NCBI GenBank assembly: GCA_020852965.1
Contig: JADYZV010000009.1
Span: forward strand, 124,001 to 188,000
DNA: 64,000 nt
Source of the DNA: Pirellulaceae bacterium
Lineage (GTDB): Bacteria; Planctomycetota; Planctomycetia; Pirellulales; Pirellulaceae
Reading direction: 5' to 3'
Shown here: in pieces, positions 29,154 to 64,000 of the stretch
How positions within the stretch are numbered: the stretch's first letter is position 1
Layout: each line of letters starts with the position of its first letter
The notes under the pieces: generated by a model
Told to the model about the DNA's origin: nothing
Databases searched by the model: none
What the model saw: the letters and a program-made list of their open reading frames with translations, nothing else
Position numbers and translations under genes: made by a program

Positions 29154-29259
29154 GTGCGATGGCATGTGTCCCGCTTAGAAAGTTGGTCGCGATGGCGATC
29201 GAACAGGGCCTCAAGGAAGACCAGGGTGAAACGCATGTTTTGCAGGAGAAAATGCAAGT

Positions 29260-29331
29260 GAGGGTGCTGGGACTTGAACCCAGGACCCACGGATTAAAAG
29301 TCCGATGCTCTACCGACTGAGCTACACCCTC
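29260..29331 (-). tRNA. tRNA-Lys (anticodon UUU)
   Basis: The minus strand folds into a full cloverleaf of 72 nt: acceptor GAGGGTG/CACCCTC, D stem GCTC/GAGC, anticodon stem TCGGA/TCCGT (one G-T wobble closing pair) with loop CTTTTAA, variable loop GGGTC, and T stem CTGGG/CCCAG with TTCAAGT. The anticodon is TTT. CCA is not encoded. Confidence 0.96.
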
Positions 29332-61571: not shown

Positions 61572-61634
61572 GAGCTTTGATCCCGTTTGATATTCTGTAA
61601 ATTGTTTGTGAACTTGGAGGGTCGGTATTTGTAT

Positions 61635-61898
61635 TTAACCACGAATCACACGAAGGGCACGAAAAAATTCTCTGCTGGTGTTCTTGGAAAAAATTCTCTG
61701 CTGGTGTTCTTGGTTGTCCAGCAACGAGGGAAAGAGCAATGCTGTTCAAAGTTTAGAGTTGCAAGATTATGGGAGCAATGTTCGAGGTCTACATAGAGCT
61801 AAATGAACGAATCATCCACTAAAAGATTTTGAAATCAAATCGCGGGTGTACTAGACAATTGAGCAGAGCGAGCTTTTCGTGTTTTTCGTGGTCAATTA
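61635..61898. repeat. Element bounded by inverted CACGAA repeats, copy 2
   Basis: It opens TTAACCACGAATCACACGAA then GGGCACGAAAAAA, and closes TTTTCGTGTTTTTCGTGGTC. An internal 27-base direct duplication (AAAAATTCTCTGCTGGTGTT and following) lies at about 61664-61712. The interior matches the element at 1322-1490 read on the minus strand. It occupies the first third of the 777-base gap 61572-62348; the rest is the RNA candidate. Confidence 0.6.
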
Positions 61899-61937
61899 GC
61901 GGCTAACTCGTCCCCTACGAACTTGCGGTCAGGACAT

Positions 61938-61977
61938 AAAAAAAGCCTTGGCAGTTTCGGGTCAAACTGCCAAGGCT
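61938..61977 (-). terminator. Rho-independent terminator of the RNA candidate
   Basis: A perfect 14-bp stem AGCCTTGGCAGTTT/AAACTGCCAAGGCT (61944-61957 with 61964-61977), loop of 6, followed on the minus strand by seven T (complement of 61938-61944). Confidence 0.92.
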
Positions 61978-62305
61978 GGTGTTCCCTGGCACCGGAGCAA
62001 AATGGAAAACCATCTCGCTCCGGTGCACAGACTTAAGCTCTATCGCGAAGCTCCCAGCAGCGTGATTGACCCAGAAACCAACGCTACTCGGATGTGTGCT
62101 CCGACCCAGGAGGGAGGCCAGCTATGTTTTCCCGCAAAACCATAGCCAACGATAGAGCTTCCACTGATCGACTTCCATGTCTGTTCATCAAGCGCGGGGT
62201 TTGCATTCCTCCGTGAATGCAATCGGTCTTCGCCTGAAATCACCAGCCGCTTCGGGAAGCTGCTGTCTGGTTCGATTCTTCGGTCCGACCTGCTTGATAT
62301 GTCAT
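61938..62305 (-). ncRNA. Structured noncoding RNA candidate, unassigned
   Basis: The minus strand is dense in perfect helices: 8-bp TTGCATTC/GAATGCAA (62201-62208 with 62215-62222); GCTTC/GAAGC (62249-62253 with 62256-62260); the long-range 11-bp CGATAGAGCTT pair (62035-62045 with 62150-62160), enclosing CTATG-TTTT/AAAA-CATAG (62122-62130 with 62136-62145); a 10-bp GCACCGGAGC/GCTCCGGTGC (61989-61998 with 62017-62026) with inner ATGG/CCAT; and the terminator. A TTGACA box lies just upstream. No convincing protein is encoded; a 67-codon frame (62040-62243) runs across the helices. I checked by eye for RNase P, tmRNA, SRP and 6S signatures and found none. Confidence 0.65.
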
Positions 62306-62334
62306 GAATAACGAATCGGACAAATCGGTGTCAA
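62305..62334 (-). promoter_or_regulatory. Candidate promoter of the RNA candidate
   Basis: On the minus strand a perfect TTGACA (62334-62329) is followed after 17-18 bases by TTATTC/TATTCA, a weak -10 box. Transcription would start near 62300. It lies only 15 bases after the stop of the Mur-ligase-like gene, so read-through from that gene is also possible. Confidence 0.4.
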
Positions 62335-62348
62335 GCCGAGAAAATAAA

Positions 62349-63902
62349 CTAATGGGAAAAATAAGGGGCGGCGGCCGACGGTGGGAAAATGCTCAGCACG
62401 GGAATCGGCACACGGCTGTTCTTGCGCGCCAACGCTTGCTTGGCAATCGACTCGTCCGTACCAGGTATGCCATCGCGATCGGTCCACGACTTGACGCCAC
62501 AGCCAGCCAATAGGATCGAGCCGACTTCGGTATGGTCGATGGCCCAACGAATCGCTGCTGAGCGATCCGCGATGACTTGTACCCGTCCTGGACTGCGGAA
62601 GCCACCGAGCACATCCATAGCCAGCGATTGAGCCATATCGGCAGACAGATCGCTCGAACTCAGCACGACGCGGTCAGCCCCCTTGTCGAGCACTTCTCCC
62701 AGCCGTTGTCGCCACTGGGGATCGAGCTTGCAACCGAGATCCATGACAACCGTGGTGGGTCCGAGCTGATGCTGCCGCAGCGCATGCAGTGCAACCGCCA
62801 CACGGTCGGGCGTTTCGGCCGCATCGATATGCACGGGAACTTCGATAGCGGAGGACAAGCGTTGCATGCGTCCAGGAATTGTATCAAGCGCTTCGATTCC
62901 AGCGACCGCATCGGGGATTGAGAAGTCAAACATCCAAGCCACTGCCACGGCGGCCATGGCGGCGCGCGCGACGTGATCGCCAGGTATCTTCAGCGTCATT
63001 GGCATCAACAGGTTGCCAGTCGTCGTCAGCAACTGCTGCTGGCCGCCGCTGCGCCCCAGGCGTTTGCCTTGAACGTGCTGCGCCGCATCCAAACCATAAT
63101 TGACACAATCGAGCCCCGAGGCTTCGGCCCATTGTGCTGCCGACGCATCATCCGCATTGTAGAGCAGCATTCCGTGCGGCTTGAGATTCTCGCCCAGGCG
63201 CCGCATCAATTCACCAAAGCCGGCTTGGCTGGAACTGCCTCGAAGTTGGCTCGAACGCATGCCGGTGAGAATCAGCACATCGAACTCCACACCAGCGGTC
63301 ACTTGCTGTTGTAGCATGCTCGGCGTCAATTCGATGATCGCGGCCGGCGAGCCAGCCAGTTCGGCTCGCTCCATCCAACGCGCCAACTTGCGAGTCGCCG
63401 GAGGCCGCGTGGCCGTGCGATCGCAGGCGGTCGAATCGCTGGCACCCAGCGATGTATAATAGGCTACCGCTCCGCCGAGTCGCTTGAGCATGGCGGCGAC
63501 AAATAGTGCGGTCGTTGTCTTGCCACAAGTGCCAACCACTCCGATCGTCAACATGCGTTGCGAAGGCTGACCGACCAGCGCCTGGCAGACGCGTCCATAC
63601 ACCTCGCGAGTGTCATCGACCAGACACTGTGGTATCGAGACAGGCAGCAACCGCTCAGCAACCACCGCTACCGCCCCTCGACGAACCGCCTCGTCGACTT
63701 GGTCGTGTTGATCGCTGGCAGCCGAGTGGTGCGGGATGAATACATCGCCTGGCTGGCAGTCTTGGGCGCGGTGCGCACAACGCGTCACCAAGATGTCTTC
63801 CGTACCGACAAACACCCCTTCGCTAAGAAATTTGCGAAGGCTAAGACCTTCCGCTTGCGAATCACTTTTGCCTGAAAAACCATCACGAAACGACGTAGAC
63901 AT
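62349..63902 (-). CDS. Mur-ligase-family protein (MurE-like paralog)
   Basis: 517 residues. Mur ligases form amide bonds at the expense of ATP in peptidoglycan precursor synthesis. The N-terminal UDP-binding-type domain (AQDCQPGDVFIP) precedes the ATP-binding P-loop VVGTCGKTTT (about 122-131) and the central domain (IELTPSMLQQ; NYGLDAAQ; IPGDHVARAAMAAVAVAW), then a C-terminal domain with IPGRMQ and HIDAAETPDRVAVALHAL, where authentic MurE has D-Y-A-H-T-P-D. The DNPR motif for diaminopimelate binding is absent, so it is probably a divergent paralog with another substrate. An AAGGAGG site at 63909-63915 fixes the ATG at 63902. Confidence 0.88.
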   Translation of the reverse strand: MSTSFRDGFSGKSDSQAEGLSLRKFLSEGVFVGTEDILVTRCAHRAQDCQPGDVFIPHHSAASDQHDQVDEAVRRGAVAVVAERLLPVSIPQCLVDDTREVYGRVCQALVGQPSQRMLTIGVVGTCGKTTTALFVAAMLKRLGGAVAYYTSLGASDSTACDRTATRPPATRKLARWMERAELAGSPAAIIELTPSMLQQQVTAGVEFDVLILTGMRSSQLRGSSSQAGFGELMRRLGENLKPHGMLLYNADDASAAQWAEASGLDCVNYGLDAAQHVQGKRLGRSGGQQQLLTTTGNLLMPMTLKIPGDHVARAAMAAVAVAWMFDFSIPDAVAGIEALDTIPGRMQRLSSAIEVPVHIDAAETPDRVAVALHALRQHQLGPTTVVMDLGCKLDPQWRQRLGEVLDKGADRVVLSSSDLSADMAQSLAMDVLGGFRSPGRVQVIADRSAAIRWAIDHTEVGSILLAGCGVKSWTDRDGIPGTDESIAKQALARKNSRVPIPVLSIFPPSAAAPYFSH

Positions 63903-64000
63903 TGTCGGCCTCCTTGCCACATGTGCCAGCGTATTGATAATCTTTGAGTTGCCGGACTTCGACCGCATCGTGCGTTCGTCGCGCCGACCATGACGCTCGG

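Follow-up and report, generated by a model that had tools for sequence, protein, structure and literature searches.

Evidence for a structured noncoding RNA spread through the Planctomycetia, with a gene often found beside cell-wall genes

Several described bacterial RNAs offer points of comparison for a structured RNA encoded in a planctomycete genome. The 6S RNA has the fold of a long bulged rod; it binds RNA polymerase and serves as the template from which product RNAs are made. The sponge RNAs CsrB and RsmX, RsmY and RsmZ are similar in length to the RNA reported here as it occurs in its home genus, and many ANGGA hairpins form the conserved part of the CsrB/RsmZ type. OLE, GOLLD, ROOL and raiA are orphan structured RNAs, lineage-restricted and elaborate, whose function long remained unknown. 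The Rhodopirellula-1 motif is a candidate structured RNA from Planctomycetes, entered in Table 1 of its source without an Rfam accession; the published description classes it as an ambiguous RNA, probably cis-regulatory, that also occurs in Proteobacteria (Weinberg et al. 2010, PMC2864571). This study concerns an RNA gene of about 360 nucleotides (nt) on the minus strand of a 64,000-nt stretch from a Pirellulaceae bacterium (contig JADYZV010000009.1 of GenBank assembly GCA_020852965.1, positions 124,001 to 188,000; hereafter the window). A first-pass annotation, made from the letters alone, had described an unassigned, highly structured RNA of about 365 nt at this place, and the predicted transcript of 360 nt agrees with that extent. 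That a gene for a structured noncoding RNA exists here and is spread through the class is almost certain. The family would be new; the general kind, a structured noncoding RNA of unknown function, is already known.

Core fold, covariation and known families

The core of the RNA is a junction of three hairpins closed by the stem P1, and the loops of two of its hairpins, P2 and P4b, are near-invariant and bear GGG (Table 1). In an alignment of 30 sequences made by sequence alone (A1), the RNAalifold structure had 93.4% of its cells paired, and 43 of its 59 pairs showed double changes; the covariation score was 0.469, compared with a shuffled mean of 0.240 and at most 0.122 in slid registers. A class-wide alignment of 86 distinct sequences to the core covariance model R2 (A5) had 93.6% of cells paired and double changes in 30 of 32 pairs, and scored 0.583 against 0.278 when shuffled and at most 0.140 when slid. 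This covariation establishes the core fold at the level of sequence comparison. Mutual information on the class-wide alignment ranked the pairs of the model at the top and added nested helix extensions; it gave no convincing pseudoknot, the top off-model pairs being extensions of known helices or non-standard pairs. GU or UG occupied 341 cells compared with 32 for AC or CA, which identifies the minus strand as the RNA strand. A fold of 381 nt reached -166.3 kcal/mol, whereas 100 dinucleotide shuffles averaged -124.3 and none was as low (z = -7.57).

The alignments differ in their membership. A1 and A2 hold 30 loci, namely that of the window and 29 found by blastn, with the weaker matches left out; A4 holds 37 of the 52 core sequences of R1, a covariance model built from 30 sequences; A5 draws on 89 sources with 89 matches, L209 and several other loci being left out, and A6 leaves out L019. 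P3 keeps its form in most sequences of the order and is replaced by a different, longer hairpin in family group f21. Twenty-four loci of other family groups were folded and judged by eye; in 16 of them, among these nine of the 15 f21 loci, a hairpin like P5 came after the core, while in the rest of the 24 (L052, L055, L059-L062, L190 and L192) none was seen immediately behind it.

Most of what had been read from the letters alone holds. The reading of the segment as RNA is borne out by strong covariation on both the sequence-only and the model-fitted alignments, and protein coding, which had been named as the competing possibility across 62040-62243, was rejected: only 22 of 129 loci kept the frame open over the stretch tested, and the distance from loop to stem was spread over all three phases (43/38/35). 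The textbook terminator is as first described. The 11-base-pair (bp) long-range pair is indeed perfect, but it encloses three hairpins and not the single one proposed. The perfection claimed for the helices fails, strictly taken, for P5, where it survives if G-U pairs are allowed.

The failure to name a family was likewise confirmed. Rfam 15 at gathering score recognized nothing on the RNA; its single match anywhere in the window was the tRNA at 29259-29331. When the expectation value (E) was relaxed to 10 over 61700-62600, eight sub-threshold matches appeared (best E 0.016; microRNA, anti-hemB, DnaX and CPEB3 models), all far under their cut-offs. When 30 homologous loci were searched with E allowed to reach 0.5, all matches were sub-threshold and none lay on the RNA: one search gave a single match of microRNA type, another gave 33, nearly all to microRNA models. 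The single RF00010 match of the genome, which represents RNase P RNA, lies elsewhere (C45, 293.8 bits). No model of transfer-messenger RNA (tmRNA) or of signal recognition particle RNA matched the RNA in the window or in the 30 loci, genes elsewhere in the genome not having been searched, and ARAGORN found no tmRNA in the window. Within the openly accessible literature that was searched, and within Rfam 15, no RNA described from planctomycetes was found to fit.

Table 1. Features at the RNA locus, in window coordinates
Feature	Position	Strand	Basis or remark
-35 box TTGACA (predicted)	62329..62334	-	sequence position; genus conservation
-10 box TATTCA (predicted)	62305..62310	-	spacer of 18 nt to TTGACA
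Predicted primary transcript, ~360 nt	61938..62298	-	promoter and terminator predictions
5' hairpin P0a, loop ACGGAG closed by C-G; CsrA-site-like	62202..62221	-	genus alignment
5' hairpin P0b, GAC-AUGGAA-GUC; CsrA-site-like	62170..62181	-	sequence
P1 5' strand, 11-bp closing stem of core	62150..62160	-	98.4% of cells paired; 11/11 pairs changed on both sides
P1 3' strand	62035..62045	-	pairs with 62160-62150
P2 hairpin, UGCGGG loop	62120..62147	-	UGCGGG in 83/86 distinct class-wide sequences
P3 hairpin, CCC-UCCU-GGG	62105..62114	-	model alignment
P4 arm, base GGAGC (62102-62098) with GCUUC (62051-62047)	62047..62102	-	model alignment
Apical hairpin P4b, UGGGUC in loop	62081-62063	-	UGGGUC in 86/86 distinct sequences
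P5 hairpin	61989..62026	-	RNAalifold structure of the order; 17-nt arms 88% complementary
Intrinsic terminator, 14 bp and T7	61938..61977	-	arms 61944-61957 / 61964-61977, 100% complementary; seven T at 61944-61938
Mur-ligase-like gene, syntenic upstream neighbour	62349..63968	-	Pfam Mur_ligase_M and Mur_ligase_C

Distribution, transcription signals and gene neighbours

In a blastn search with 411 bases against 98 genomes, the RNA's own included, 13 of the 14 other genus members gave clear matches, and weaker matches occurred throughout the order; the same-genus genome G003 had no significant match. R1 detected the RNA in 176 of the 296 order genomes searched (146 of the 206 of good quality), and R2 did so in 201 of the 397 class genomes (191 of the 339 of good quality). 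The copy number is usually one per genome: among the order genomes listed, two R1 matches were seen only in G006, and R2 matched twice in G789 and G874. In a sample of the phylum R2 matched 31 of 392 genomes, all within the class, to which by kinship 40 of the sampled genomes belong, and gave no match in the 352 outside it; these large covariance-model searches used strict filters, by which weak matches are lost. The exact core pattern of the order occurred in 63 stretches among 84,980 species genomes, 61 of them planctomycete by title, with L119 (a genus of Pirellulaceae) in addition. Plasmid records contained no match to the RNA; phage and Escherichia coli records were not searched. The class and the order through which the RNA is spread are, to judge from record titles, Planctomycetia and Pirellulales. 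The genus member G006 also has, about 4.3 kb from the main copy, a stretch that weakly matches the P5 part by blastn (G006:C4:304204-304276, E 0.002).

A promoter was predicted upstream of the RNA, and transcription would start near 62298. The TTGACA noted earlier at the upstream end is present at 62334-62329, and the end then given for the RNA, 62305, coincides with the last base of the -10 box on the downstream side. TTGAC-N19-TATT precedes P1 with identical spacing in 13 of 14 genus loci, the -10 box of L018 being deviant. Depending on the genus locus, the stop codon of the upstream Mur gene precedes the -35 box or falls within it or within the spacer, and the spacing of the promoter is constant regardless. 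The pattern TTGAC.{18,20}TATT occurred in 13 of 14 genus loci (shuffled mean 0.06, maximum 2) and in 14 of 114 loci outside the genus (0.22 shuffled), and the looser TTGAC.{17,20}TA in 36 of these 114 (4.58 shuffled), the shuffles preserving single-base composition only. As the pattern was derived from the genus and then applied to the other loci, the genus figure is descriptive. Sorted by genomic setting, TTGAC.{18,20}TA was present in all 14 genus loci, in 35 of the 52 loci where no upstream Mur gene was found, in one of 23 with a Mur gene upstream only, and in none of 39 between a Mur gene and mraY or murG. It was found neither at the RNase P locus, on the strand of that gene, nor upstream of the window tRNA.

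Terminators were predicted in 13 of 14 genus loci, compared with none on the opposite strand and one in shuffles, and in 41 of 113 non-genus loci, compared with 11 and six. Where promoter and terminator were both present, the predicted transcripts measured 320-456 nt in the genus (13 loci, median 345, 360 in the window) and 230-390 nt outside it (17 loci, median 246). The covarying fold, the predicted promoter and terminator of its own and the lack of a conserved reading frame together point to a stand-alone structured noncoding RNA.

Settings were counted on 130 loci distinct in the core and chosen by the exact core pattern or by listed coordinates, as were promoters and terminators. This set omits some homologues (for example L035, L042 and L043) as well as the loci of the R2 searches of class and phylum and of the RF00013 search; 128 of the 130 have at least 300 nt upstream, and the flanks are short in many. 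A Mur ligase lies directly upstream on the same strand in 76 of the 130, and in 39 of the 130 a Mur gene upstream is combined with mraY (28) or murG (11) downstream. At L022 the upstream MurF and the downstream MraY are both above their curated cut-offs; the MurG of L024 is under its own (167.9 vs 250.25). In 51 of the 130 neither a Mur gene upstream nor mraY or murG downstream was found, and the genus loci have no mraY or murG within the 0.4-1.6 kb covered downstream. Absence of Mur here means that none was found near the RNA by phmmer with two Mur seeds; 29 of the 52 such loci carry a same-strand upstream frame of at least 200 codons, none with the Mur-type P-loop signature used. Such placement, beside cell-wall genes in many lineages and elsewhere in others, is what would be expected of a trans-acting RNA and argues against a leader.

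The product of the upstream gene in the window has murE as its best NCBIfam model, at 181.8 bits under a cut-off of 257.3. It may be a diverged Mur ligase; the gene at the same position in L022 is a MurF above cut-off. Just downstream of the RNA are a pair of 30-nt inverted repeats (61632-61661 / 61869-61898, 77% complementary) and a tandem 26-mer (61661-61712). The sequence CCACGAATCACACGAA may be a dispersed repeat, as it occurs six times in the genome compared with none for the reversed control.

Proposed role and rival explanations

The RNA very probably acts in trans. The explanation that we favour as a whole, and consider likely, is that of an independent trans-acting structured RNA of the Planctomycetia, forming a ribonucleoprotein with a constant partner and matching no known family. 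That the RNA has a useful job is probable because its fold has been kept in many members of a whole class. The junction would present the two GGG-bearing loops to the partner, which we guess to be most likely a protein; loops and junction are the likely contact sites because they are the class-wide constants. Inside cell-wall operons the RNA may be released from the operon transcript, as is suggested by the promoter pattern not having been found between Mur and mraY or murG. In the genus only, CsrA-like proteins may bind the 5' hairpins and so couple the RNA to the Csr system.

Several observations weigh against this explanation. R1 was without a match in 120 of the 296 order genomes (60 of good quality), and R2 in 196 of the 397 class genomes (148 of good quality); either the RNA is not universal in the order and class or some copies have diverged too far for the models. 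The promoter pattern is absent from 17 of the 52 loci without a Mur gene upstream, and TTGAC combined with a more TATAAT-like -10 box occurred in no locus of the genus or non-genus groups, with no enrichment. Terminators, unlike the promoter pattern, do not separate the settings, being predicted in 12 of 39 loci with Mur and mraY or murG compared with 22 of 53 without Mur. No ANGGAN hexaloop was found in 37 non-genus transcripts, where 2.5 were expected. A5, furthermore, was fitted to the model structure, as A1 was not.

The hexaloops bear most directly on the idea of a CsrB/RsmZ-like sponge that titrates CsrA-type proteins. The genus RNAs have a 5' extension whose added hairpins match the ANGGAN hexaloop, the CsrA-site consensus. 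Fourteen genus transcripts contain 16 such hairpins where 1.27 were expected, at least one in each and one or two per RNA; GGA occurs in them 148 times compared with 102.7 expected, and the window's genome (G000) encodes 12 CsrA (PF02599) homologues above cut-off (e.g., L230-L237). CsrB carries more hexaloop sites than the one or two per genus RNA, however, and GGA stands at expectation in the 37 non-genus transcripts (216 vs 214.3). Since these lack hexaloops altogether, CsrA cannot explain the class-wide conservation, and a sponge is an unlikely account of the RNA. With hexaloops confined to the genus and 12 CsrA homologues in the genome, it is plausible on these sequence features that the Csr link is a local addition and not the core function. 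A leader or attenuator acting in cis on mraY or murG, of which the window copy would be a relic after break-up of the cluster, would suit the 39 loci placed between these genes and Mur. The downstream gene is not constant, though, and fold and loops are kept in the 51 loci with neither neighbour, while the genus loci combine the promoter pattern (14 of 14) and terminator (13 of 14) with a lack of mraY and murG over the downstream range covered; we regard a leader as quite unlikely.

It is very unlikely that the RNA works as a small RNA whose anti-Shine-Dalgarno-like stretch CCUCCCUCC blocks ribosome-binding sites by base pairing: almost invariant as this stretch is in 30 order sequences, other and longer hairpins replace it in f21, and its CCC is paired with GGG in P3. 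A strongly diverged 6S RNA would agree with the usual single copy per genome and with the result for RF00013, the 6S family, in the order: with E limited to 1 the model matched 29 of 31 sampled class genomes outside the order and none of eight within it, 18 of the 39 being above cut-off, and the 6S RNA of the order has either been lost or become too diverged for RF00013. The RNA itself does not match RF00013, which found nothing in its own genome even with E allowed to reach 10. Where both occur the identity is refuted: eight genomes that hold this RNA have an RF00013 match somewhere else, above cut-off in G121, G145, G166, G233 and G289 and below it (E 8e-7 to 2e-6) in G184, G202 and G276. 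This, and a multi-hairpin junction in place of the long bulged rod, makes the 6S reading extremely improbable.

A wider form of the ribonucleoprotein explanation can be put forward tentatively, as possible rather than probable: a class-wide housekeeping ribonucleoprotein RNA whose ancestral gene lay in the cell-wall (dcw) cluster, which is expressed either with the peptidoglycan operon or from a promoter of its own, and which some genera have wired into a many-membered CsrA network. If this were true, such an RNA would tie regulatory RNA to cell-wall synthesis in a group that, according to PMC12283558, divides without FtsZ. A class-wide covarying RNA whose gene is often in the cell-wall cluster would be a component overlooked by protein-based annotation, and it offers those who work with cultured planctomycetes a defined target for deletion, pull-down and structural studies.

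Comparison with named systems

Like the orphan RNAs OLE, GOLLD, ROOL and raiA, this RNA is lineage-restricted and elaborate; it differs in having no Rfam match at threshold. The Rhodopirellula-1 motif differs, by its published description (PMC2864571), in being probably cis-regulatory and in occurring also in Proteobacteria, but might be the same RNA. With 6S RNA it shares structure, the usual single copy per genome and an independent transcript, here predicted; it differs in its multi-hairpin junction and in that RF00013 matches at other places. Compared with CsrB and RsmX, RsmY and RsmZ, its sites are one or two, belong to the genus only and are missing from the 37 transcripts of other lineages, but the ANGGAN hexaloop hairpins of the genus RNAs are a likeness to these sponges.
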